The translations under genes and the position numbers were made by a program. The notes under the pieces are model-generated. The model was not told where the DNA came from. It did not search any database and saw only the letters and a list, made by a program, of their open reading frames with translations. From assembly GCF_013403915.1 (NCBI RefSeq), contig NZ_JABFDI010000010.1, forward strand, positions 62,001-126,000: a DNA stretch of 64,000 bases, written 5' to 3'. Of this stretch, positions 16,977 through 27,612 are shown one piece after another (position 1 is the stretch's first letter; each line of letters begins with the position of its first letter). This DNA comes from Winogradskyella pacifica (GTDB taxonomy: Bacteria > Bacteroidota > Bacteroidia > Flavobacteriales > Flavobacteriaceae).

Positions 16977-18950
16977 GTGAAGAACGAATTACAACTTTCA
17001 GATTGGTTACCTACCACAAACAAAGAGGTGAAAATTCGCGGATGGGAAGCACTCGATGTGATTCTGTTTAGCGGAGATGCTTATGTAGATCATCCAACGT
17101 TTGGTCCTGCAGTAATAGGACGTATGTTAGAAAGTTTTGGGTTACGTGTCGCTATTGTGCCGCAACCTAATGTGAATGATAATCTTCAGGATTTTGTAAA
17201 ACTTGGTGCCCCAAAATTATTTTTTGGTGTAACAGGTGGCTGTATGGATCCTATGATTAGCAATTATAACGCGAATAAGAAACGTAGAGATAAGGATGCT
17301 TATACTCCGAATGGAGATATTGGGTTTAGACCAGATTATGCGACTACTGTTTATACTAATATTCTAAAAGAGAAATGGCCAGATACTCCGGTTTTAATCG
17401 GTGGTATTGAAGCATCATTGCGTCGTGTAACGCACTACGATTTTTGGAGTGATAAGTTAATGCCGTCTATTTTAGAAACCTCTAAAGCAGACATGTTGGT
17501 TTATGGTATGGGTGAGCAGCCTTTGCGTGAAGTGGTACGTTTGTTAGAAAAAGGAGTGCCTTTTAATAGCATCAATACGGTTTTACAAACAGCAGTTCTT
17601 TTAAAAGAAGATGAAAAAATACCGAAGAATAGTAATTGGGAAGATATTGAGATTTCTTCGCATGAAGTTTGTTTAAAAGACAAGAAGAAGTATGCTTCTA
17701 ATTTTAAGGTCATTGAGCAGGAATCTAATAAGTTAGCGGCACGACGAATTTTTCAGAAAATAGGGAATAAGACTTTGATGATTAATCCACCGTACCCAAC
17801 CATGACGGAAGCAGAAATTGATGCCTCTTTCGATTATCCTTATACCCGATTACCACATCCTAAATATAATAAACGAGGACCAATCCCTGCGTTTGAAATG
17901 ATTAAGTTCTCTATCAACATTCACCGTGGGTGTTTTGGTGGTTGTAGCTTTTGTACTATTTCTGCTCACCAAGGGAAATTTATTGCGTCTCGTAGTCAGG
18001 AATCTATTTTAAAAGAAGTAGATACAGTGGCAAATATGCCAGATTTTAAAGGCTATTTATCTGATATTGGTGGGCCAAGTGCCAATATGTATCAGATGAA
18101 AGGGAAAGTACAATCTATTTGCGACAAGTGTGTGGCACCTAGTTGTATTTCGCCCGTGATTTGTAGTAATTTAGATACCTCTCATAAGCCGTTAACGGAA
18201 TTGTACCAAGCGGTAGATAAGCATCCAAAGGTGAAGAAATCATTTATTGGTTCAGGGATTAGACATGATATGTTGGTGCCAGAATTTAATAAAAATGCCG
18301 ATCCTAAAGAGTTAGATGATTATACCGAAGAAGTGATGACCAAGCATGTTTCTGGCCGATTGAAAGTGGCTCCAGAACATACAAGTGACCCGGTTTTGAA
18401 ATTGATGCGTAAACCGTCGTTTAAATACTTCCATAAGTTTAAAGAACGTTTTGATAAGATAAACATTAAGAAAGGCTTGAAGCTTCAATTGATCCCTTAT
18501 TTTATATCGAATCACCCAGCTTGTGAAGTGGAAGATATGGCTAATCTAGCTGCCGAAACTAAAGATATGGGTTTCCAGTTAGAGCAAGTACAAGGCTTTA
18601 CACCAACACCAATGACGGTTGCTACGGTAATTTATTACAGTGGGTACCATCCTTACACCTTAAAGAAAGTAAACACGCCGATTACTAAAAAGGAAAAGGA
18701 CGAACAACACCGTTTTTTCTTCTGGTACAAGGATGAAAATAAAGCGTGGATTAAGAAGACCTTAAATAAATTGGGTCGTGAGGATTTACTAAGCGTTTTA
18801 TTGCCTGAGAAAACTGAAAAATGGCGTAAAAACAAACCTACAGGTGACGCTAAAAACACCTTTAATGATGCGGTGCCTTTTAATCAGCGTACGGCTGAGG
18901 ATAAGGTGCGATTTAAAGGTAAGAAGCGAAATAAGAAGAAGCGACGTTAG
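16977..18950 (+). CDS. YgiQ family radical SAM protein
   Basis: A 657-aa cytoplasmic protein. The N-terminus (QLSDWLPTTNKEVKIRGW, then VILFSGDAYVDHPTFGPAVIGR) is the YgiQ hallmark. The [4Fe-4S]/SAM motif CFGGCSFC lies near residue 320, followed by the radical SAM barrel and an extra four-cysteine cluster region (CDKCVAPSCISPVIC, about 380-395). The C-terminus is basic (KGKKRNKKKRR). The biochemical role of YgiQ proteins is not established. GTG is used as the start; the next methionine is far inside the conserved domain. The gene stands alone between two repeat-bearing intergenic regions. Confidence 0.93.
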   Translation: MKNELQLSDWLPTTNKEVKIRGWEALDVILFSGDAYVDHPTFGPAVIGRMLESFGLRVAIVPQPNVNDNLQDFVKLGAPKLFFGVTGGCMDPMISNYNANKKRRDKDAYTPNGDIGFRPDYATTVYTNILKEKWPDTPVLIGGIEASLRRVTHYDFWSDKLMPSILETSKADMLVYGMGEQPLREVVRLLEKGVPFNSINTVLQTAVLLKEDEKIPKNSNWEDIEISSHEVCLKDKKKYASNFKVIEQESNKLAARRIFQKIGNKTLMINPPYPTMTEAEIDASFDYPYTRLPHPKYNKRGPIPAFEMIKFSINIHRGCFGGCSFCTISAHQGKFIASRSQESILKEVDTVANMPDFKGYLSDIGGPSANMYQMKGKVQSICDKCVAPSCISPVICSNLDTSHKPLTELYQAVDKHPKVKKSFIGSGIRHDMLVPEFNKNADPKELDDYTEEVMTKHVSGRLKVAPEHTSDPVLKLMRKPSFKYFHKFKERFDKINIKKGLKLQLIPYFISNHPACEVEDMANLAAETKDMGFQLEQVQGFTPTPMTVATVIYYSGYHPYTLKKVNTPITKKEKDEQHRFFFWYKDENKAWIKKTLNKLGREDLLSVLLPEKTEKWRKNKPTGDAKNTFNDAVPFNQRTAEDKVRFKGKKRNKKKRR

Positions 18951-19300
18951 TCTTAGTTCGTTTACTTCAATCTCATTAGTTTATTGTATGGTTAAGACTT
19001 AGGGTTACAGCTAAGGCTTGGTTGGTATATACCCGAGGATGATCCGACTTAGATACGGAGTACATACGGAGGAGATATGGAGTAACTACGGGTGAACCCT
19101 TGCAATAGTCCGTTCTTAAATAGCTAGTGATTCTTGCTTTATTACTGTGAAAACGTATTAGCGTTCTTACTTTCTTAAATCTTAAAAAGTATAGGTGTCA
19201 GAAACTCAATTGACTACTGAATTGTGGCTTTTTCAAGTGTTAATTATTTCGTTTCTCCATTGTGTTTATATTAATTTTATTGCTCTAAACAACAAATAAA
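18951..19300. other. 350-base intergenic region with a short tandem repeat
   Basis: No open frame of coding character is seen on either strand. The only structured part is a GC-richer block at about 19030-19105 containing the 11-bp tandem repeat annotated separately. The rest is AT-rich and holds the presumed promoter of the type IX secreted protein, for which no exact TAnnTTTG was found. Confidence 0.7.
19053..19096. repeat. 11-bp imperfect tandem repeat, four units
   Basis: Successive 11-base units read ATACGGAGTAC, ATACGGAGGAG, ATATGGAGTAA and CTACGGGTGAA, a decaying array with the core TACGGAG. The preceding CCGAGGATGATCCGACTTAG is also GC-rich relative to its surroundings. Confidence 0.75.
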
Positions 19301-20227
19301 ATGATAAAAAACTACACAATTGCCTTCATGTTATTACTTACCGGAGGTGTCTTTAGTCAGGAAACAATTTCCTTTGAAACCAGTGAATCTTATAATTTAG
19401 GAACACTAAACAACCAAAATGGTTGGGAAGTTTCGGTAGATAGCGAAGGTGTCTTTCTTCAGAATCAAGTGGTATCTGATGAGGGAGCTACTGATGGCAT
19501 TTATGCCTTTAAAAATTCTTATGAGCCGAGTTTTAATCCTCAATTTTACTCAATTTTTGGTGCTGCAAAAAACTTTAACGCTCCAAAATCATTTGAAGAT
19601 TTTACATTTTCGTATGATGTTATGGTAACAGAAAGTGATGGATCTGATTTTGAAATGACCCTTTTTGGTATTGATGCCAATGATGATTTTGTTCCTGTTG
19701 CAGGGGTTATTATGGAATATGGAGAATCTATTTATGTCATAGATGATATAAATTATGGAACTGTTGATCTTGAAGGTGCCGATTGGACACCAAACACATG
19801 GTTAAATATTAAAATTGAAGTCACTGCCACAGAATTAAAGTATTATTTGAATGATGTTTTAGCACACACACGTAGCAATTTTACGTCTGTGGATATTGTA
19901 GGTTTTAATATGTTACATAACAATTATGGTGGTGATGCTTTTTACGATAATTTTAGTTTTGAAAGCGGCACCTTAGGTACTGAAGACTTTGCGGATGCAT
20001 CAGTGTTGCACATTTATCCAAATCCGGTTGCTGATGAATTAAAAATTACAGGTATTCAGAACGAACAGATTGCACAGGTGTCTATTTATAATTTAAATGG
20101 ACAGCAATTGATGGAACGCACTTCTGTAGATGCATTAGATGTTAGTAGTCTTGCTGCAGGAGTTTACATGTTAAATGTTGTAACAGTAGATGGTAAAACG
20201 CATACAGATAAGCTTTTGAAAAAATAG
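19301..20227 (+). CDS. Type IX secretion system substrate, surface or secreted
   Basis: A 308-aa protein with a signal peptide (about 1-19, ending GVFSQ). A central beta-rich region (about 22-225) has the look of a concanavalin/LamG-like jelly roll (VSYDVMV-type strands, WLNIKIEV, LKYYLNDVLAHT, AFYDNFSFE). The C-terminal type A sorting domain (about 235-308) has the motifs IYPNPVADELKI, IYNLNGQQL, SSLAAGVYML and the basic end KLLKK. The sorting domain sends the protein through the outer membrane and is then removed. Substrate or ligand is unknown. It is monocistronic, with a terminator 25 bases downstream, and lies at the edge of the repeat/defence island. Confidence 0.9.
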   Translation: MIKNYTIAFMLLLTGGVFSQETISFETSESYNLGTLNNQNGWEVSVDSEGVFLQNQVVSDEGATDGIYAFKNSYEPSFNPQFYSIFGAAKNFNAPKSFEDFTFSYDVMVTESDGSDFEMTLFGIDANDDFVPVAGVIMEYGESIYVIDDINYGTVDLEGADWTPNTWLNIKIEVTATELKYYLNDVLAHTRSNFTSVDIVGFNMLHNNYGGDAFYDNFSFESGTLGTEDFADASVLHIYPNPVADELKITGIQNEQIAQVSIYNLNGQQLMERTSVDALDVSSLAAGVYMLNVVTVDGKTHTDKLLKK

Positions 20228-20251
20228 CGTTACGTAAATCTTATTTAAATG

Positions 20252-20284
20252 GCCTTGATTATTTTATAATTGAGGCTTTTTTTT
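20252..20284 (+). terminator. Rho-independent terminator of the type IX secreted protein gene
   Basis: The stem GCCTTGATTAT / ATAATTGAGGC (11 bp with two G-U pairs) has a 3-base loop and is followed by a run of eight T. Confidence 0.88.
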
Positions 20285-20354
20285 GGTTTGATGTTTTTGC
20301 TAAATTAGTGTGTTGTTTAATCTTGAAGAGAATGTTAGGGGGATTGGTTGGGTA

Positions 20355-20547
20355 ACACCCTTAAGGAGTTACGCTCGGTATTTTTGATAAAAGAATTCTT
20401 TTACCTTAATAATCCTCAAGGGGAAATTTGTTTAAGGAAAACATGTTATTCATAAAATTGTATATTATGAATGGTAACAATAAAAACTAATTTTTACACA
20501 AAAGTTTCTTGGTCTATATTGTCCCCTAGAGGGGACTTTAGGGGTGT
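20355..20547. repeat. Left 193-bp palindromic flank of the DUF559 unit
   Basis: A MITE-like element. The left end is ACACCCTTAAGG (degenerate), the right end CTTTAGGGGTGT. Inside are CTCGGTATTTTTG, a perfect 16-base palindrome TAAAAGAATTCTTTTA (20388-20403), AATAATCCTCAAGGGGA (20409-20425), an AT-rich middle, and TTGTCCCCTAGAGGGGACTTT near the right end as overlapping inverted arms. It is in direct orientation with the element at 20970-21163, has almost the same length, and shares the order of every block. It ends 26 bases before the DUF559 start. Confidence 0.8.
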
Positions 20548-20573
20548 AAAAAGAAGAGTGATAAATTAGTGAA

Positions 20574-20940
20574 ATGAAAAACAAAATCATTCCATACAAT
20601 CCAGAACTAAAGCAACTCGCCAGACAACTAAGAAAAAAATAGTACTTTACCTGAAGTATTACTTTGGCAACATATAAAACAACGTGCTTACGATGTTCAG
20701 TTTCATAGGCAAGTACCAATGCTAAATTACATCGCAGATTTTTATTGCCACGAAATAGGTTTAGTTATTGAAATTGATGGTGACAGTCACGAGCATCGTT
20801 TTTTATATGATACTAAACGGCAAACGGAGTTAGAGGCTTATGGAGTTGCTTTTTTGAGGTTTTCTAATGAAGACGTTAAAAAGAATATGTTTAGTGTGTT
20901 GTTGGTTATTGAGGCGAAGGTTGGGGAATTGCGTGATTAA
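20574..20940 (+). pseudogene. DUF559 endonuclease-like gene with a one-base frameshift
   Basis: The ATG at 20574 opens MKNKIIPYNPELKQLARQL, the usual start of DUF559 proteins. The frame then hits TAG at 20640-20642, right after a run of seven A. Removing one A restores LRKNSTLPEVLLWQHIKQRAY and joins the rest of the gene, including the PD-(D/E)XK-like core LVIEIDGDSH and the tail AFLRFSNEDVKKN. The repaired product would be 121 aa, the normal family length. DUF559 proteins are related to the Vsr-type nuclease fold; their role is unknown. The shift could be a recent inactivating mutation, a homopolymer sequencing error, or a site tolerated by transcriptional slippage. It lies between two direct 194-bp repeats. 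Confidence 0.85.
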
Positions 20941-20969
20941 CTAGGGGGAACATCTCAAAATATTCCTAA

Positions 20970-21163
20970 ACACCCCTAAAGAGCTACGCTCGGTATCTTC
21001 AATGAAAATATATTTTCATCTCAATAATCCTCAAGGGGACATTTGATAAAGGAAAAAAACATACTCATAGGATTTTTAGATTGTGTATTGGGTACACAAA
21101 ATTCATTTTTTGTGCTTATGTTTCTTGGTTAGGATTGTCCCCTTGAGGGGACTTTAGGGGTGT
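20970..21163. repeat. Right 194-bp palindromic flank of the DUF559 unit
   Basis: The ends are perfect 12-base terminal inverted repeats, ACACCCCTAAAG (20970-20981) and CTTTAGGGGTGT (21152-21163). Inside are GCTACGCTCGGTATCTT, a perfect 18-base palindrome ATGAAAATATATTTTCAT (21002-21019), AATAATCCTCAAGGGGAC, an AT-rich middle, and GGATTGTCCCCTTGAGGGGA. The block order matches the left copy in the same orientation, while the central palindromes differ in sequence but keep their self-complementarity. Confidence 0.82.
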
Positions 21164-21240
21164 GGAAGGGAATTCATATTTATATTAGAAACGATAACAG
21201 TCATTATAGTAGTGATAATACTTTCTATAACATAAGTAAG

Positions 21241-21432
21241 TTAATAATGAATGTTTTTCAATGCAATTCTCGCCCGATAAAGGGATGCAAACTCTAAATC
21301 AGTTGATAATTCATTAAATAATGCTGCTATCAAATATTTTTTAATGGCATCGTTTTCATCTTTTCCTCTTTCATTTCCTAAATGTTTTCCATGCTTATAA
21401 ATGGCAAATAAAGTTTTTCTAGATCTTTTCAT
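21241..21432 (-). CDS. Small protein divergent from the McrBC regulator, 63 aa
   Basis: The frame starting MKRSRKTLFAIYKHGKHLGN and ending ARIALKNIHY has balanced, protein-like composition: a basic N-terminus, then the acidic helix ERGKDENDAIKKYLIAALFNEL. Longer starts exist upstream (to 21528), but an exact TATATTTG promoter element lies at 21453-21460 on this strand, predicting transcription from about 21448, so the ATG at 21430-21432 is chosen. I recall similar short Bacteroidota proteins with a GNERG and KNIHY-like pattern, but no function. It shares its control region with the Xre regulator of the restriction module and may belong to it. Confidence 0.55.
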   Translation of the reverse strand: MKRSRKTLFAIYKHGKHLGNERGKDENDAIKKYLIAALFNELSTDLEFASLYRARIALKNIHY

Positions 21433-21452
21433 TCTGAGTAAATTATTTACAT

Positions 21453-21460
21453 CAAATATA
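21453..21460 (-). promoter_or_regulatory. Promoter -7 element of the 63-aa divergent ORF
   Basis: The minus strand reads TATATTTG, an exact TAnnTTTG match. It is 20 bases before the chosen ATG, giving a leader of about 16 bases. No -33 TTTG is seen; the operator arm sits there instead, suggesting activator-dependent or repressed transcription. Confidence 0.5.
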
Positions 21461-21468
21461 ATAGAATG

Positions 21469-21506
21469 ATACATATTGTATGTTGATTGCTGCATACAAT
21501 ATGTAT
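21469..21506. promoter_or_regulatory. C-protein-like operator: 14-bp inverted repeat
   Basis: A perfect inverted repeat, ATACATATTGTATG (21469-21482) and CATACAATATGTAT (21493-21506), with a 10-base spacer. Each arm is itself partly palindromic, as in restriction-modification controller operators. The right arm overlaps the -7 region of the Xre gene promoter and the left arm lies just upstream of its -33 region, the classic layout for activation at low and repression at high regulator concentration. It also covers the upstream region of the divergent ORF. Confidence 0.78.
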
Positions 21507-21512
21507 AGATTC
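21482..21512 (+). promoter_or_regulatory. Promoter of the Xre-mcrBC operon, likely leaderless
   Basis: GTTG (21482-21485), exactly 19 bases, then TAGATTCG (21505-21512): one mismatch from consensus in each element. The predicted start (about 21517) coincides with the ATG at 21518, so the regulator message would be leaderless, as known for several restriction-modification controller genes. Confidence 0.55.
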
Positions 21513-21517
21513 GGTGT

Positions 21518-21781
21518 ATGGTAAACAAGTTTCTATTAAAAGAATTTGGTACACGAATTCGAAAATTAAGAACTCAACAAAATTTGAGTCAAGAACAGCT
21601 TTCTTTTAAAACGGGATTTCATCGTACCTATATTGGAATGATAGAAAGGGGTGAGAGAAATATATCCTTAACCAATATGGCGATTTTTGCTAAAGCATTC
21701 AATTTAACAGTTGATGGATTGTTGAAGTTTGATAACTCAGAAAAGTTATTTAAACAATACAAACTAAAAACTGAAGATTAA
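21518..21781 (+). CDS. Xre-family HTH regulator, C-protein type
   Basis: An 87-aa DNA-binding protein. The helix-turn-helix spans about residues 9-65, with FGTRIRKLRTQQNLSQEQLSFKTGFHRTYIGMIERGERNISLTN showing the SQE..A..TG..R.YI..IERG pattern of restriction-modification controller (C) proteins. Size and sequence suit a dimeric autoregulator. It is first in an operon with the mcrB- and mcrC-like genes (45-base gap, then a 4-base overlap). A strong inverted repeat lies 11 bases upstream of its start, presumably its own operator. No DNA methyltransferase is nearby, which is unusual for a C protein but suits a type IV-like enzyme. Confidence 0.9.
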   Translation: MVNKFLLKEFGTRIRKLRTQQNLSQEQLSFKTGFHRTYIGMIERGERNISLTNMAIFAKAFNLTVDGLLKFDNSEKLFKQYKLKTED

Positions 21782-21826
21782 AACTTTTGTTTCTAGAGAT
21801 TATTATACGACACTTAAATATAACAC

Positions 21827-23263
21827 ATGAGTATAGAAAATATTAGAGAATTCATAAAAGCAAAAGCGGAACAATTCGGAGCTAAGACAGATAACGAATT
21901 TAACAAGCCGTATGTTGAAAGAAACAACACTGGGCAGGAAGCACTCAAAGACAATGGTGCATATTTTGGTTTTATTCATCCAGAAGAAGAAGTATCTGGA
22001 CCATTTCATGACTTTTCATTAACAATATTTCCCAACGACCAGAATAAACCTTGGTTAATTTGTCTCGGTATTGGTTCCAGTGGTTTTAAAAATGATTACG
22101 AGCTCGCAACCTATCCAGGACTTAGAAGATTGTTTACAAAGCTTACCGACGAAAGAGGCTTTTGTAAATCCGATTTTTCAGATATAGAAACTGGTTTACC
22201 AAAATCAATAGTAGGAAGCTCAGAATTGCAGCACATAAAAAACACAATTAAGACTTATACTAAAGTTTTACCCACGTGCCAAATTGTTGAAGACCCAGAA
22301 AGTGAAGAGGGAAAACAGGTTATTTCAGCTTTTGTCGCAGGCTATGCTAAACTCAGAGATTGGCCTTCTAATAAAGGCCACCGTAAAGAAATTTCAGAAG
22401 CCCTAGAGCCTTTTCTTAAGACGGAAACTAAAAACGAAGAAATAGAAATAGAAAATCTTCTAAGCGAGAGAAAGTATATTGTACTTCAAGGGCCTCCTGG
22501 TACGGGAAAAACAAGAATGGCAAAAAGTGTTGCAGACAAAATTGGTAAAAGGACATTTTTTACACAATTTCATGCAGAGACTAGTTTCTCAGATTTCATT
22601 TTCGGAATTAGACCTGACAATGCAAACGAAAAACTGCGGTATAAGGAATATTTGGGCCACTTCACCAAAGCATTGAAGTATGCAGTTGAAAATAGCAGAG
22701 AGAAAGTCATTTTAATCATTGACGAAATAAATAGAGCTAACCTCTCAAATGTTTTAGGACCAATTTTTTATTTATTCGAGCACAAGATGAATGTCTCAAA
22801 TGTAGAAATTGAGATTTCACCAAATTTCAAAGTAAATAAACTGCCAAACAATTTTTATGTAATCGCAACTATGAACACAGCTGATAGAAGTCTGGCCGTC
22901 GTTGATTTTGCATTAAGAAGAAGGTTTGCTTGGTATACTATGACTCCTAAAATTATTGAAGGCTCAAGCAAAAGGCTTCAGAATGTATCTGTTAATAAAA
23001 TAATAGAGGGAGAGTTTTTCTTTAAAGAAGATTTTGCTGCAATTGAAGAAATTTTTAATTGGTATGCATCAAGCACTGAATTAAACCTTCAGCCGGGAGA
23101 GGGTTATTTTATTGCTGGAAGTGAAATCGAAATGCTAAAGAGAATCAAATACGAAATATTCCCGTTAATTAAAGAATATTTGCAGGAAGGACTCTTGCGT
23201 AACGCCAAAGAAGAATTCAATAACTACTTCTCATCGCGAATAAATTTATCCCTTTTCGAATGA
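21827..23263 (+). CDS. McrB-like AAA+ GTPase of a type IV restriction module
   Basis: A 478-aa protein. The C-terminal two thirds form an McrB-type AAA+ motor: Walker A GPPGTGKT (about 221-228), Walker B LIIDEINRAN (about 293-302), the McrB nucleotide-specificity signature MNTADRS (about 348-354) and the arginine segment LRRRFAW (about 363-369). The N-terminal 200 residues are a separate domain with LTIFPNDQNKPWLICLGIG, DYELATYPGLRRLF and FCKSDFSDIETGLP. It is not the E. coli McrB methylcytosine domain as I know it and probably sets substrate specificity. The motor translocates DNA and activates the McrC nuclease encoded next, whose start overlaps this stop by 4 bases (ATGA). Confidence 0.9.
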   Translation: MSIENIREFIKAKAEQFGAKTDNEFNKPYVERNNTGQEALKDNGAYFGFIHPEEEVSGPFHDFSLTIFPNDQNKPWLICLGIGSSGFKNDYELATYPGLRRLFTKLTDERGFCKSDFSDIETGLPKSIVGSSELQHIKNTIKTYTKVLPTCQIVEDPESEEGKQVISAFVAGYAKLRDWPSNKGHRKEISEALEPFLKTETKNEEIEIENLLSERKYIVLQGPPGTGKTRMAKSVADKIGKRTFFTQFHAETSFSDFIFGIRPDNANEKLRYKEYLGHFTKALKYAVENSREKVILIIDEINRANLSNVLGPIFYLFEHKMNVSNVEIEISPNFKVNKLPNNFYVIATMNTADRSLAVVDFALRRRFAWYTMTPKIIEGSSKRLQNVSVNKIIEGEFFFKEDFAAIEEIFNWYASSTELNLQPGEGYFIAGSEIEMLKRIKYEIFPLIKEYLQEGLLRNAKEEFNNYFSSRINLSLFE

Positions 23264-24639
23264 CAAAACTATTAGATGTGTTTTGTGAAATCCCTTGTTT
23301 AACTGAACAATCACGGCAGTTAGGAGGAATTATATTGCAAAAAAAATGGTTTAAATCAGCAGATAAAAGAGTTATTGGGCAATATCTTCAAAAATTTATT
23401 GATTATAATTCAGAGCAATTTAAATTCTTGGGTGTTCAACCTTATATAATTGGCACAGACAAAAGTACCGCACTAACGTTTCGTTCATCTGGTTTTATTG
23501 GTTCTATTCCACTACGAGCATCTGATACTGGAAAGCAAATAGGCGACTTTGTGGTAATGCCGAGATTTACCGGTCGTGATAGATTTGAAGATTATATTGA
23601 AATTCTAAACTTGCTAGGAACAGAAATTAGCCCTGAAGTAGTTGACAGTTTGCCATTAGCATCAGGTAAGAACTTTAGGCCGCCATTGTACTTAGAAGCT
23701 GTAAAATTCATTTCGTCCCTTGAAACACTAGCAATGAGACCATGGCGTAAGTTTGATAATATTGAAAAAGTTTCAAACCAACCAACTGGACAAATAAATT
23801 GGAATAAATATATTAATTCGGAATATAAAGTTGAAAACCGTTTAAAGTTTCCATCTAGAATCAATGTATTAAGTGAATTTCATAGCGAATATGCTGAAGT
23901 TAGATATGTTTTTGATATTTGTAAAAGCGAACTCTTATCGGCAAATACGCCGCAAAGAATAAAAAATACACTTCGAAATAAGTTAAACTTTCTTGAAAAA
24001 CGATTACATCATCACAATTCAAAAGCAACTAATAAAATGGTTATTCGGTTTTCAGACAGTCCAATAGTCAAAAACTGTAAGGAGCAAGCTAATAAAATTT
24101 TAAACTATAACCTTGTTGATAGTACATCTTGGCGTGTTGATTTCTCAGATGTATTTGAGAAATTTATACAACATATCTTTAGGGAAGTCGCAAAAGAAAC
24201 TGGTGGGCGACTTTATACAAATTTTAAATTCCAATCTAGTACAAAAAAGCATTACTCTTGGGAATTGAAACATATTGAACCGGATGCTATTTTTCAGAAA
24301 GAAAATTTATTAGTGTTTATTGACGCCAAATACAAATCAAACCTTTATAATAAGTTTGGTCAGAGCGAAATATTGAAGGCTGACCATCGTCACGACTTAC
24401 ATCAAATAATGGCCTACTCATCTTTTAGTAACACTAATTTAAAATATGGATTTCTTTGTTACCCTTCAAACGAAATGGAAATAAAAAGCATACAGTTTAA
24501 AAATGGTATAAACGAAGTAAAAAATACAATATTAATTTTTGGAGTACCTCTAAGAAAAGATAGTATATGGGAAGCAAAAAGATTATTGACGAGTAAACTA
24601 AATGAAATTGAAAGAAGACAAAGAGAAAGTCACGTTTAG
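23260..24639 (+). CDS. McrC-like nuclease subunit
   Basis: A 459-aa protein, the partner of the McrB-like motor. The C-terminal nuclease domain shows the family helix DFSDVFEKFIQHIF (about 294-307) and a PD-(D/E)XK core: PDAIF (about 341-345), with the acidic/lysine pair in FIDAKYK (about 353-359). The N-terminal half (about 1-280) is the McrB-binding region with beta-strand-rich sequence and GRDRFEDYIEILNLLG. It overlaps the mcrB-like gene by 4 bases, indicating translational coupling. It is the last gene of the operon; no clear terminator is seen in the 141 AT-rich bases before polA, which is convergent. Confidence 0.88.
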   Translation: MTKLLDVFCEIPCLTEQSRQLGGIILQKKWFKSADKRVIGQYLQKFIDYNSEQFKFLGVQPYIIGTDKSTALTFRSSGFIGSIPLRASDTGKQIGDFVVMPRFTGRDRFEDYIEILNLLGTEISPEVVDSLPLASGKNFRPPLYLEAVKFISSLETLAMRPWRKFDNIEKVSNQPTGQINWNKYINSEYKVENRLKFPSRINVLSEFHSEYAEVRYVFDICKSELLSANTPQRIKNTLRNKLNFLEKRLHHHNSKATNKMVIRFSDSPIVKNCKEQANKILNYNLVDSTSWRVDFSDVFEKFIQHIFREVAKETGGRLYTNFKFQSSTKKHYSWELKHIEPDAIFQKENLLVFIDAKYKSNLYNKFGQSEILKADHRHDLHQIMAYSSFSNTNLKYGFLCYPSNEMEIKSIQFKNGINEVKNTILIFGVPLRKDSIWEAKRLLTSKLNEIERRQRESHV

Positions 24640-24780
24640 CGATAACAACTTTAGCTTAAATAATTAATAAGGTTAAGTGTTTAACTGAATATATATTAAT
24701 TTGCTAATCCTTATATATTCTTAAAAAAAACTTACTAATTCTTCAAACCTTTATAAAAATCCCTTTGAGAATCATTCTCT

Positions 24781-27612
24781 TTAATGCGCCTCCAACCAAT
24801 TCAACCCCGTATCCACCTCAACATCAAGCGGCACATCCATAATAAATGCACTTTCCATTTCGGTTTTAATTAAGGTAGTGAGTTCTTTGAGTTCTGGTTT
24901 GTAGATGTCAAAGACCAATTCATCATGTACTTGTAAGAGCATCTTCGATTTATAATGTCCAGCTTCTAGCTTGTTGAAAATATTAATCATCGCTATTTTA
25001 ATAATATCGGCAGCACTTCCTTGTATGGGTGCGTTAACGGCATTTCGTTCTGCAGCACCTCTGACTACAGCGTTACGCGAGTTGATATCTTTTAAATAAC
25101 GACGACGTCCCAAAACGGTAGAGACATAGCCGTGATCTCTTGCAAAATCGACTTGCTTACTCATGTAAGCCTTTAATTTTGGATAGGTTTCGTAATAGGT
25201 GTCAATAAGTTCTTTGGCTTCACCACGCGATAAATCGGTTTGGTTACTTAACCCAAAGGCAGACACACCATAGATGATTCCGAAATTAACAGTTTTGGCA
25301 TTGCTACGTTGTTCTCTGGTGACTTTAGCCAATGGCACATTAAATACTTTGGATGCGGTTGAAGCATGAATATCCTCACCGTTTTTAAAGGCTTCAATCA
25401 TGGTTTCTTCTTCACTTAAAGCAGCAATGATTCGTAATTCTATTTGCGAATAATCGGCAGCGAGTAAGATGTACTCTTCGTTTCTTGGCACAAAGGCTTT
25501 ACGCACTTGACGACCACGTTCGGTACGAATTGGAATATTCTGTAAATTAGGATTGTTACTACTTAAACGTCCAGTTGCTGCAACAGTTTGCATGTAATCC
25601 GTATGCACACGACCTGTAGAGGATTCTACTTGTAAAGGCAACGCATCTACATAGGTGCTCTTTAATTTTGAAAGGCCTCTAAAATCTAAAATTTTCTGAA
25701 TGATATCATGGTCTTTTGCTAAATAGGATAAGATATCTTCGCCAGTCGCATATTGCCCTGTTTTCGTTTTCTTAGGTTTATCAACGAGTTTCATGTTTTC
25801 AAACAGCACAATACCTAACTGCTTTGGAGAGGCAATGTTGAATTCCTCGCCTGCTGTGGCATAAATTTCTTGTTCGAGCGTTGCGATGTCGTTATTCAAA
25901 TCTTCGGATAAGGAGTCTAGAAATTCTTTATCGAGATTAATGCCTTCTAATTCCATGGCTGCTAGGACACGCAGTAGCGGAATTTCAATCTCATCGAATA
26001 ATTTTTGAGTATTAGCTTCGCCTAATTCCGTTGTGAAATGTTCTTTTAATTGTAAGGTAATATCGGCATCTTCTACGGCGTATTCGGTTAGTTTTTCTAA
26101 CGGCACATCGCGCATAGACAATTGATTCTTTCCTTTTTTACCAATGAGGTCTGTAATAGAAATTGGTGTATAGTTTAAGTAGGTTTCTGCTAAGATGTCC
26201 ATATTGTGACGCATATCGGCATTAATTAAATAATGCGCTAACATGGTATCGAAGAGTTTGCCTTTAACCTCGATATTGTATTTGGCTAATACTTTGATGT
26301 CGTATTTTAAGTTCTGACCGATTTTTTCGATGGTTTCATTTTCGAAAAATGGTCTGAAGGTTTCAATTAATTCTTGCGCTTCATTTCTATCTTCTGGAAA
26401 TGGGACATAAAATCCTTTGCCAACTTCCCAAGAAAATGCAATCCCGACTAATTCTGCGGTTAATGCATTTAAGCCTGTGGTTTCGGTATCAAAGCACACA
26501 GACGTTTGATTCATTAAGTTCTTAACAAACAGTTTGGTTGCCATACCAGGCGCGACGCTTTGGTAAAAATGAGAATAGGTTGCTGACGTTTTTCTAGTAT
26601 TTTCGGAAATAGTTTCAGTTGCTGAAGGTTCTCCACCTCCAAATAATGAGAATTGACCTTCGCCTGCGCCAGAAGTTGAAGTTGAACTCGAAGTTGAACT
26701 CGAGCTTGAATTTGTTGTGTTTTCTGTTTTGGGTGCAAAGGTTTTATTAAAATTATCAATGAGACGTCTAAATTCTAATTCTTGAAAAATTTCAGTCACT
26801 TTTGGAATATCAGGTTCTGACATTTCAAAATCTTCTGCATTAAACTCTACAGGGACGTCGAGCATAATGGTCGCCAATTGTTTAGATAATAAACCGAGTT
26901 CTTGATTAGCTTCAATCTTCTCTTTCATTTTCCCTTTTAGCTCGTGTGAATTTGCAAAAAGGTTTTCCATACTGCCATAAGCCGCTAAAAATTTCTTTGC
27001 TGTTTTTTCACCAACGCCTGGCAATCCAGGAATATTATCAGAGGCATCTCCCATCATTCCTAAAAAGTCAATGACTTGCAGAGGATCGGTAACTTCAAAT
27101 TTCTTTTGTACTTCTGGGATGCCCCAAGTTTCGTAACCACCTCCAAAAACAGGTCGGTACATAAAGATGTTTTCTGAAACGAGTTGTGCAAAATCCTTAT
27201 CCGGAGTTACCATAAAGGTTTTGTAACCTTCTTTTTCGGCTTTTTTAGCTAAGGTACCAATGACATCATCGGCCTCATAACCTTCTTTCACCATGATTGG
27301 AATGTGCATGGCTTCAAGAATATTACAAATATGCGGAATGGCCGTTTTAATGCCTTCTGGTGTTGCGTCTCTGTTGGCTTTGTAAGCTTCGAACATTTCC
27401 ACGCGGTCTACACTACCTCCTTTGTCAAAACAAACGGCTAAATGATCTGGTCGTTCGCGTTTAATCACATCTAAAAGCGAATTCATAAAGCCCATAATGG
27501 CTGAGGTGTCTTCCCCTTTAGAATTGATTCTTGGATTTTTTATAAAAGCATAATACCCGCGGAAAATTAAAGCGTAAGCATCAACTAGAAATAGGCGTTT
27601 TTGATCTGACAT
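24781..27612 (-). CDS. polA: DNA polymerase I
   Basis: A 943-aa three-domain polymerase for Okazaki-fragment processing and repair. The N-terminal 5'-3' exonuclease (about 1-295) has LFLVDAYALIFRGYYA and DNIPGLPGVGEKTAKK. A linker rich in serine and threonine (about 296-330) follows. The 3'-5' exonuclease (about 350-540) keeps the first proofreading motif FDTETTGL. The polymerase domain has TGRLSSNNPNLQNIPIRT, DYSQIELRI, RSNAKTVNFGIIYG and the final LQVHDELVFD. All motifs look intact. The gene is convergent with mcrC and preceded by a 350-base region. The low-complexity linker is encoded by a 12-bp tandem repeat. Confidence 0.97.
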   Translation of the reverse strand: MSDQKRLFLVDAYALIFRGYYAFIKNPRINSKGEDTSAIMGFMNSLLDVIKRERPDHLAVCFDKGGSVDRVEMFEAYKANRDATPEGIKTAIPHICNILEAMHIPIMVKEGYEADDVIGTLAKKAEKEGYKTFMVTPDKDFAQLVSENIFMYRPVFGGGYETWGIPEVQKKFEVTDPLQVIDFLGMMGDASDNIPGLPGVGEKTAKKFLAAYGSMENLFANSHELKGKMKEKIEANQELGLLSKQLATIMLDVPVEFNAEDFEMSEPDIPKVTEIFQELEFRRLIDNFNKTFAPKTENTTNSSSSSTSSSTSTSGAGEGQFSLFGGGEPSATETISENTRKTSATYSHFYQSVAPGMATKLFVKNLMNQTSVCFDTETTGLNALTAELVGIAFSWEVGKGFYVPFPEDRNEAQELIETFRPFFENETIEKIGQNLKYDIKVLAKYNIEVKGKLFDTMLAHYLINADMRHNMDILAETYLNYTPISITDLIGKKGKNQLSMRDVPLEKLTEYAVEDADITLQLKEHFTTELGEANTQKLFDEIEIPLLRVLAAMELEGINLDKEFLDSLSEDLNNDIATLEQEIYATAGEEFNIASPKQLGIVLFENMKLVDKPKKTKTGQYATGEDILSYLAKDHDIIQKILDFRGLSKLKSTYVDALPLQVESSTGRVHTDYMQTVAATGRLSSNNPNLQNIPIRTERGRQVRKAFVPRNEEYILLAADYSQIELRIIAALSEEETMIEAFKNGEDIHASTASKVFNVPLAKVTREQRSNAKTVNFGIIYGVSAFGLSNQTDLSRGEAKELIDTYYETYPKLKAYMSKQVDFARDHGYVSTVLGRRRYLKDINSRNAVVRGAAERNAVNAPIQGSAADIIKIAMINIFNKLEAGHYKSKMLLQVHDELVFDIYKPELKELTTLIKTEMESAFIMDVPLDVEVDTGLNWLEAH
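26672..26713 (-). repeat. 12-bp tandem repeat inside polA
   Basis: Units GAAGTTGAACTC (26678-26689 and 26690-26701), a half unit before and a diverged unit after encode the Ser/Thr-rich linker between the two exonuclease domains. The array keeps the frame, so changes in copy number would only lengthen or shorten the linker. Confidence 0.7.

Follow-up and report, generated by a model that had tools for sequence, protein, structure and literature searches.

In a 64,000-nt stretch of the Winogradskyella pacifica genome (the window), a gene encoding a DUF559 protein lies between two long palindromic elements. We think it reasonably probable that gene and repeats form a system resembling the repetitive extragenic palindromes (REPs) and their REP-associated tyrosine transposases (RAYTs), in which an EDxHD-type homing nuclease, not an HUH transposase, would serve its own palindromes, with the locus in the window as a decayed member. 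The two elements, identified by comparing repeats and palindromes, occupy positions 20355 to 20547 (193 bp) and 20970 to 21163 (194 bp) of the forward strand, have the same orientation and are 75% identical across their full length, reproducing the coordinates and orientation given in a first-pass annotation of this DNA. The terminal inverted repeats described there, perfect in the right copy, were recovered as well (12 of 12 positions on the right, 10 nt at 90% on the left), as was the shared order of internal blocks. Both long-form elements start with ACACCC(C/T)TAA, followed by the GCTCGGTAT block (20373-20381 and 20988-20996), a central palindrome (TAAAAGAA/TTCTTTTA and ATGAAAATA/TATTTTCAT were both recovered), AATAATCCTCAAGGGGA (at 20408 and 21023), GTCCCCTnGAGGGGACTTT and a TTTAGGGGTGT end. 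The blocks GCTCGGTAT, AATAATCCTCAAGGGGA and GAGGGGACTTT (the last at 20529 and 21145) are each present exactly twice in the window, with no copy on the other strand. At the right end of the left element (20522-20547) is a half-unit core, TCCCCTAGAGGGGACTTTAGGGGTGT, which consists of a hairpin and a tail towards the gene and is the part repeated across the genome; a second copy forms the right end of the right element (21138-21163).

The gene between the elements (20574-20940, forward strand) was assigned to a Vsr/EDxHD-like nuclease of DUF559 clade 1 based on its match to Pfam PF04480 (88.3 bits over the open part, 20644-20937), its intact relatives and the fold of the open part. Its frame is broken: translation from the ATG at 20574 would meet an in-frame stop after 22 codons (20640-20642, following a run of A), and what remains of the gene is open in another frame. 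An intact relative is present in genome G031 (locus L085).

Copies of the repeat are dispersed throughout this genome. The core AGGGGACTTTAGGGGTG was found at 31 places with up to two mismatches, 19 of them exact, and at 38 places with up to three mismatches compared to 5 for a reversed control, indicating that the repeat is not due to chance. The copies take the form of half-units (hairpin plus tail), of inverted pairs arranged as ACACCCC-hairpin-spacer-hairpin-GGGGTGT, and more rarely of the 190-bp form; as judged by eye, the first two are commoner and the 190-bp form with GCTCGGTAT is a minority variant. The two inverted pairs that were folded gave long stems (z of -10.3 and -8.9). This dispersal within the genome, inverted pairs included, is a property of REP/RAYT systems. 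The GTAG tag found at the foot of REPs is absent; by eye, the listed copies have TTTAGGGGTGT or a near variant beside the hairpin. The further copies predicted for related genomes were detected, with the core present in 25 of the 60 genomes searched, the window's own included, all from one genus and with no match for the control; these per-genome counts are complete. When nine element sites were compared with the orthologous places in the close relative G031, the element was absent from five and present in three (one rearranged), with one case undecided.

DUF559 genes are associated with flanking repeats well beyond this locus. The survey of the 60 genomes returned 56 rows, 13 of which were left out (11 below 35 bits and two at 78-80 bits) to give 43 near loci. 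A wider sample comprised the best 80 of at least 557 loci from named genomes, fetched with clade-2 proteins and bearing 46 distinct first-word labels, some of which are not genus names; 75 were usable, and five were too near a contig end. In a separate search, 60 of 91 matches were retrieved. Locus L193, a duplicate of L067, was counted for hairpins, left-right homology and the GTCATT-type pattern discussed below, and was excluded from the pair and grouping analyses of repeat classes. Hairpins were detected in both flanks of 26 of the 43 near DUF559 loci compared to 5 of 227 other open reading frames (ORFs), and of 46 of the 75 wider loci compared to 6 of 122 other ORFs. Homology between left and right flanks was seen for 23/41 near DUF559 loci (two being too near a contig end) versus 14/232 other ORFs, and for 48/75 wider loci versus 8/126 other ORFs. 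DUF559 genes are thus bracketed far more often than other ORFs, and neither of the two outcomes named in the first-pass annotation as refuting (no further copies, or no linkage beyond chance) was obtained. The connection suggested there for other Flavobacteriaceae is real and extends to other Bacteroidota as well as to plasmid records of cyanobacteria, Deinococcus and alphaproteobacteria. Among the 71 bracketed loci, the best match was a direct repeat for 49 and an inverted repeat for 22. The genome of the window has four DUF559 matches, three of them strong: the window gene, a gene on contig C8 surrounded by inverted cores, and a gene on contig C66 surrounded by a different palindromic repeat.

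The repeat class follows DUF559 relatedness within the genus. We scored whether two DUF559 loci have a flank repeat in common, using pairs whose outer flanks are dissimilar. Within the genus, this was found for 0 of 466 pairs with less than 50% protein identity and 9 of 59 at 50-65%, rising to 38 of 44 at 65-75% and 24 of 24 above 75% (62 of 68 at 65% or more). Within single genomes, the corresponding counts were 0/19 below 50%, 0/1 at 50-65% and 2/2 at 65-75%, and between genera 3/2847, 90/3065, 60/571 and, above 75%, 10/25. Inverted cores were present on both sides (up to four mismatches, within 200 bp) of 10 of the 14 clade-1 loci, with their tails towards the gene. The other four were two loci with a core on the right only, the window locus with one on the left only (its right element begins with the long form), and a locus at a contig end with none on the other side. 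No clade-1-type core lay beside any of the 23 other DUF559 loci of the genus. Across the genus, 12 genomes that have a clade-1 gene contained 4-33 cores, and 25 that lack one 0-42 (p 1.2e-4, ignoring shared ancestry).

Most clade-1 loci have a gene between two inverted repeats of one class, and resemble the REPtrons, bacterial interspersed mosaic elements and REP doublets (REPINs) of REP/RAYT systems, in which a nuclease gene is found between inverted palindromic repeats that also occur as solo units and inverted pairs. In those systems too, enzyme and repeat evolve together, according to sections of PMC2817692 and PMC3733652. The differences are that the enzyme is of the Vsr/EDxHD type and not an HUH tyrosine transposase, that the repeat copies viewed have no GTAG tag at the hairpin, that DUF559 units of other clades lie in frame inside essential genes, and that many brackets are direct (the 49 versus 22 given above). 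The REP/RAYT analogy of the first-pass annotation thus holds for the layout and for half-units arranged as inverted pairs with tails towards most clade-1 genes; the protein would presumably also cut the repeats.

We considered whether palindromes simply gather in variable intergenic spots, or act as terminators, with small dispensable genes landing in the same places. The interval between the ygiQ-like gene and polA that holds the window's unit is a variable hot spot, other palindromes are seen by eye at the same intergenic sites in relatives, and a GIY-YIG ORF and a four-helix-bundle-like ORF are bracketed too. We nevertheless find such passive bracketing improbable, given that only 10 of 124 other ORFs of similar size in the same loci were bracketed, that units in frame within recG, metH, leuS and ileS are neither terminators nor intergenic, and that the match between repeat class and nuclease clade is left unexplained.

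The in-frame units were found at 15 of the 43 near loci, with DUF559 inside a host enzyme encoded by recG (eight), metH (three), leuS (three) or ileS (one); host gene names come from reading of the sequences and, for metH of Raineya, also from Pfam. In the 11 of these 15 units that were viewed, palindromic borders with C-runs and G-runs were recognizable, some of them worn. The sites exist in filled and empty forms. Of 33 recG loci, 8 were filled and 23 empty, G013 carried a palindrome but no DUF559 in a 17-aa insert, and G042 had a short extension of another kind; three of the 33 had been added as known filled loci, and among the other 30, five were filled. The metH site, parsed for 29 of 30 loci, was filled in two and empty in 27. 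Among 30 leuS loci, two carried DUF559, 15 carried other short in-frame inserts, many of which resemble GTCATT-type palindromes by eye, and 13 were empty. The edge of the editing domain of leucyl-tRNA synthetase (LeuRS) is in itself a hot spot of short in-frame inserts lacking DUF559 (15 of the 30 loci, L133-L162). The suggestion of a mobile unit is supported by recG, metH and leuS, each of which occurs both with and without the insert. The window's own gene and flanks may have moved jointly; their locus looks inherited in several relatives.

As in the window, the metH DUF559 of G042, a genome from another family, is enclosed by a pair of direct repeats; these measure ~110 bp and are in frame. 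This repeat had ten matches in the genome, two at metH, five in frame without DUF559 and three elsewhere. The five solo in-frame matches were in ileS (two pieces of one copy), in hutU (twice) and in leuS, the last at the same site as the DUF559 units. No in-frame solo copy of the window's own repeat class is shown. In a Raineya metagenome-assembled genome, another DUF559 clade with other palindromes occupies the same metH linker. Six clade-1 genes immediately precede a threonine dehydratase-like gene, with the frame open from one to the other, and in L230 and L260 DUF559 is likewise fused in frame to an rRNA methyltransferase-like gene. An intein was rejected for the one insert scanned within its whole host protein, the MetH of Raineya, where no Hint domain was found and DUF559 alone exceeded its Pfam cut-off in the segment that separates the two B12-binding domains.

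The main rival is that DUF559 is a homing nuclease gene that lands on pre-existing palindromes, with the repeats being moved by something else. This would account for metH, ileS and recG units in which the gene sits mid-element, as if a palindromic element had been split, for the many repeat copies and the repeat-rich genomes without a matching DUF559, and for the short in-frame leuS inserts. A gene that lands on palindromes should, however, adjoin several repeat classes per genome, and the observation that class follows nuclease relatedness instead speaks against it. No other mover was identified either: the only Y1_Tnp match in the genome is on another contig, C14, though other transposase families, DDE included, were not searched for. 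We consider this rival unlikely, albeit worth serious attention. An ordinary Y1 transposase element was rejected because of this single Y1_Tnp match on another contig; the bracketed gene itself is DUF559.

A further question is whether DUF559 serves the cell, in repair or defense, and the palindromes are regulatory hairpins kept alongside. The ratio of nonsynonymous to synonymous substitution rates for the recG inserts was 0.03-0.17 in 26 of 28 pairs (two were not computable) compared to 0.03-0.08 for the host, so that the recG-borne DUF559 looks to be under purifying selection, as a cellular role would predict, although in the G016 copy the EVDG motif is altered. Several plasmid copies are located beside DUF1156, BREX-type or helicase genes, and the unit in the window adjoins a McrB-like ATPase gene. 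Such a role is hard to reconcile with the patchy presence of DUF559 (29 of 60 genomes), the internal stops or broken frames in the copies of the window, G005, G015 and G017, and the spread of repeats far from the gene, and we regard it as distinctly improbable. Searches for known defense functions gave one weak partial DUF559 match in PADLOC, which did not support a defense role; PHROGs gave weak DUF559 matches, one to a family named HNH endonuclease, and NCBIfam only PRK09767, below cut-off, together with two weak anti-phage models for one protein.

At third codon positions, the recG inserts of G001 and G027 differed less than their hosts (8/148 versus 129/697, p 2e-5), and those of G030 and G003 were more divergent (54/148 versus 166/697, p 0.002). 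These two pairs fit an exchange of the insert apart from the host gene.

Searches of phage and plasmid records with a clade-2 protein returned 4 and 43 records, respectively. Left-right homologous repeats were present in six of the eight plasmid loci read (Picosynechococcus, two Pseudanabaena, Deinococcus, Sphingomonas and Azospirillum). With annotated whole coding sequences (CDSs) as borders, four of five plasmid DUF559 genes were bracketed compared to 6 of 87 other CDSs, three of which adjoin DUF559; the Sphingomonas gene lacked left-right homology with whole-CDS borders and showed it with domain borders. On the Pseudanabaena galeata plasmid (L397), DUF559 and its palindromes lie in frame inside a large protein that reads as methyltransferase-like. 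This breadth bears on the idea that two copies of an ordinary miniature inverted-repeat transposable element (MITE) of an unseen DDE transposon flank a passenger gene by chance. Terminal inverted repeats and MITE-like solo pairs are in its favor, but the passenger would have to be DUF559 repeatedly, in many genera and several phyla, which makes the idea very improbable.

Some other small ORFs were noted in the same material. A GIY-YIG nuclease ORF (L266:5639-5962) lies between 214-bp direct repeats and may represent a parallel system. An ORF at L344:953-1309, 118 aa in L344, presumably of a four-helix-bundle-like family and with similar DNA in L345 and L347, lies between other inverted repeats; in these three relatives its site is the intergenic place where the genome of the window has a palindromic pair. 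A third ORF, Y1 transposase-like by eye (L249:1251-1595), has an apparent in-frame palindrome.

DUF559 is a widespread family that is still listed in Pfam as being of unknown function. It significantly matches the catalytic domain of the homing endonuclease I-Bth0305I in both sequence and fold. Its invariant residues include D45, E56, D58, H62 and D69, of which the aligned I-Bth0305I keeps some, not all. One DUF559 gene is already called an EDxHD family member in the text available from PMC9403480. Like EDxHD homing endonucleases, the DUF559 units are inserted in conserved genes that in relatives occur without them. The DUF559 units differ from I-Bth0305I in their palindromic borders, in a host frame that continues through the insert and in that a scan of one case detected no intein domain; at ~100-120 aa, DUF559 also lacks the long regions for DNA binding that part of PMC3943268 describes for I-Bth0305I. 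Among other palindromic families, the Rickettsia palindromic elements insert in frame in genes, as stated in an excerpt of PMC10969869, and another DUF559-linked class behaves likewise in ileS, hutU and leuS of G042. These elements and the CGTC-tagged REPs, whose moving enzyme is given as unknown in a section of PMC3733652, are of other sequence classes, in contrast to the DUF559-linked repeats, which are tied to a nuclease gene. A further precedent is the MITE family in hupL of Thiomargarita, for which an origin in an element with a PD-(D/E)XK nuclease gene was proposed (PMC4853749, in part). There too a MITE family is tied to a nuclease (PD-(D/E)XK_2) gene, though in the portion of that paper available the nuclease is PF12784 (YhgA type), a single organism is treated and no class-to-clade test appears.

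Several observations weigh against the REP/RAYT-like interpretation. Left-right homology was lacking for 27/75 wider and 18/41 near loci, for two Synechocystis plasmid DUF559 genes, and for the flanks of the E. coli DUF559 gene (which we take to be ycjD). Single linkage sorts the 71 bracketed loci into nine repeat groups, one with 52 members and a second, the class of the window, with 11; independent pairings are thus fewer than loci, and the wider sample is itself the clade-2-fetched best 80. In the genome of the window, 26 of the 31 core copies do not adjoin a DUF559 gene. The comparison of core numbers ignores shared ancestry, and G017 (42 cores) and G006 (29) are repeat-rich, yet no clade-1 DUF559 was found in them. 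The tails of the half-units point inward at stand-alone clade-1 genes and outward in solo pairs and in-gene units, and no single excision scheme fits both orientations. No target-site duplication or movement was seen, the flanks of orthologous empty sites being too diverged for exact junctions. For the in-gene units, the stem finder scored both flanks in only 8 of 15, some borders being worn, and three of the five recG pairs tested showed no difference between insert and host. One narrow GTCATT-type pattern was found in the 400-bp flanks of 0 of 123 DUF559 loci, and DUF559 was rejected as the mover of GTCATT-type repeats to that extent; together with the leuS inserts that lack DUF559, this indicates that in-frame palindromes can arise without DUF559. 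Finally, I-Bth0305I lacks several residues that are invariant in DUF559.

The unit in the window lies in a variable interval between a convergent ygiQ-like gene and polA (18950-24781), which was delimited by comparison with relatives and measures 5.8 kb here versus ~11 bp in G009. G031 and G033 have the DUF559 unit in this neighborhood; so does G015, as far as its contig end, and in G032 the unit adjoins polA, with no ygiQ. Identity between G031 and the window is 92% as far as 21182, ~20 bp beyond the right element, after which the two differ until polA. This match and the presence of the unit in other relatives suggest that it has been inherited for some time, while the adjoining DNA, with its helix-turn-helix (HTH) and McrB-like ATPase genes, appears to have been gained or lost. 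To the right of the right element (21518-24639) are an HTH regulator, a McrB-like AAA_5 ATPase and a 459-aa ORF; G031 has other DNA there. A perfect 14-bp inverted repeat, ATACATATTGTATG/CATACAATATGTAT, at 21469-21506, just ahead of the HTH gene, is perhaps an operator.

Bacterial genomes very commonly contain short palindromic repeats, many families of which have no known moving enzyme. In the open-licence literature, subscription papers not being covered, we found no earlier report of a link between DUF559 and palindromes. The recurrence of the pairing in many other bacteria suggests that the DUF559 family may be a mover of such repeats, and we infer that DUF559 cuts its cognate palindrome or its target, with repair spreading the repeat. 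The protein would recognize the palindrome as a cruciform, as a single-stranded hairpin or by its sequence, and would cut or nick there or cut the empty target; repair of the break would then copy the repeat into it, with or without the nuclease gene. Repeats that lack the gene would be non-autonomous and depend on a nuclease acting in trans, which is how RAYTs are believed to serve REPs. Within a coding sequence, an insert would survive where it leaves the reading frame open and lies in a permissive loop. At the window locus the nuclease gene is broken, and its repeats persist.

Extended to the family, as a tentative proposal that may well not apply in full, DUF559 could be the mover, so far missing, of a large class of bacterial palindromic repeats found in several phyla. 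As a hydrolytic homing-type nuclease and not a transposase, it would spread its cognate palindromes by break repair, as full and gene-less units, in intergenic DNA and, unspliced and in frame, in loops of essential enzymes such as MetH, RecG, LeuRS and isoleucyl-tRNA synthetase; similar systems may be run in parallel by GIY-YIG genes and perhaps by further small genes. If true, this would provide a mechanism for in-frame palindromes in essential genes such as those known from Rickettsia, the Rickettsia-type class itself being without a link here (0/123). The match between repeat class and nuclease clade makes both partners testable, as a 100-aa protein and a 30-bp DNA element.
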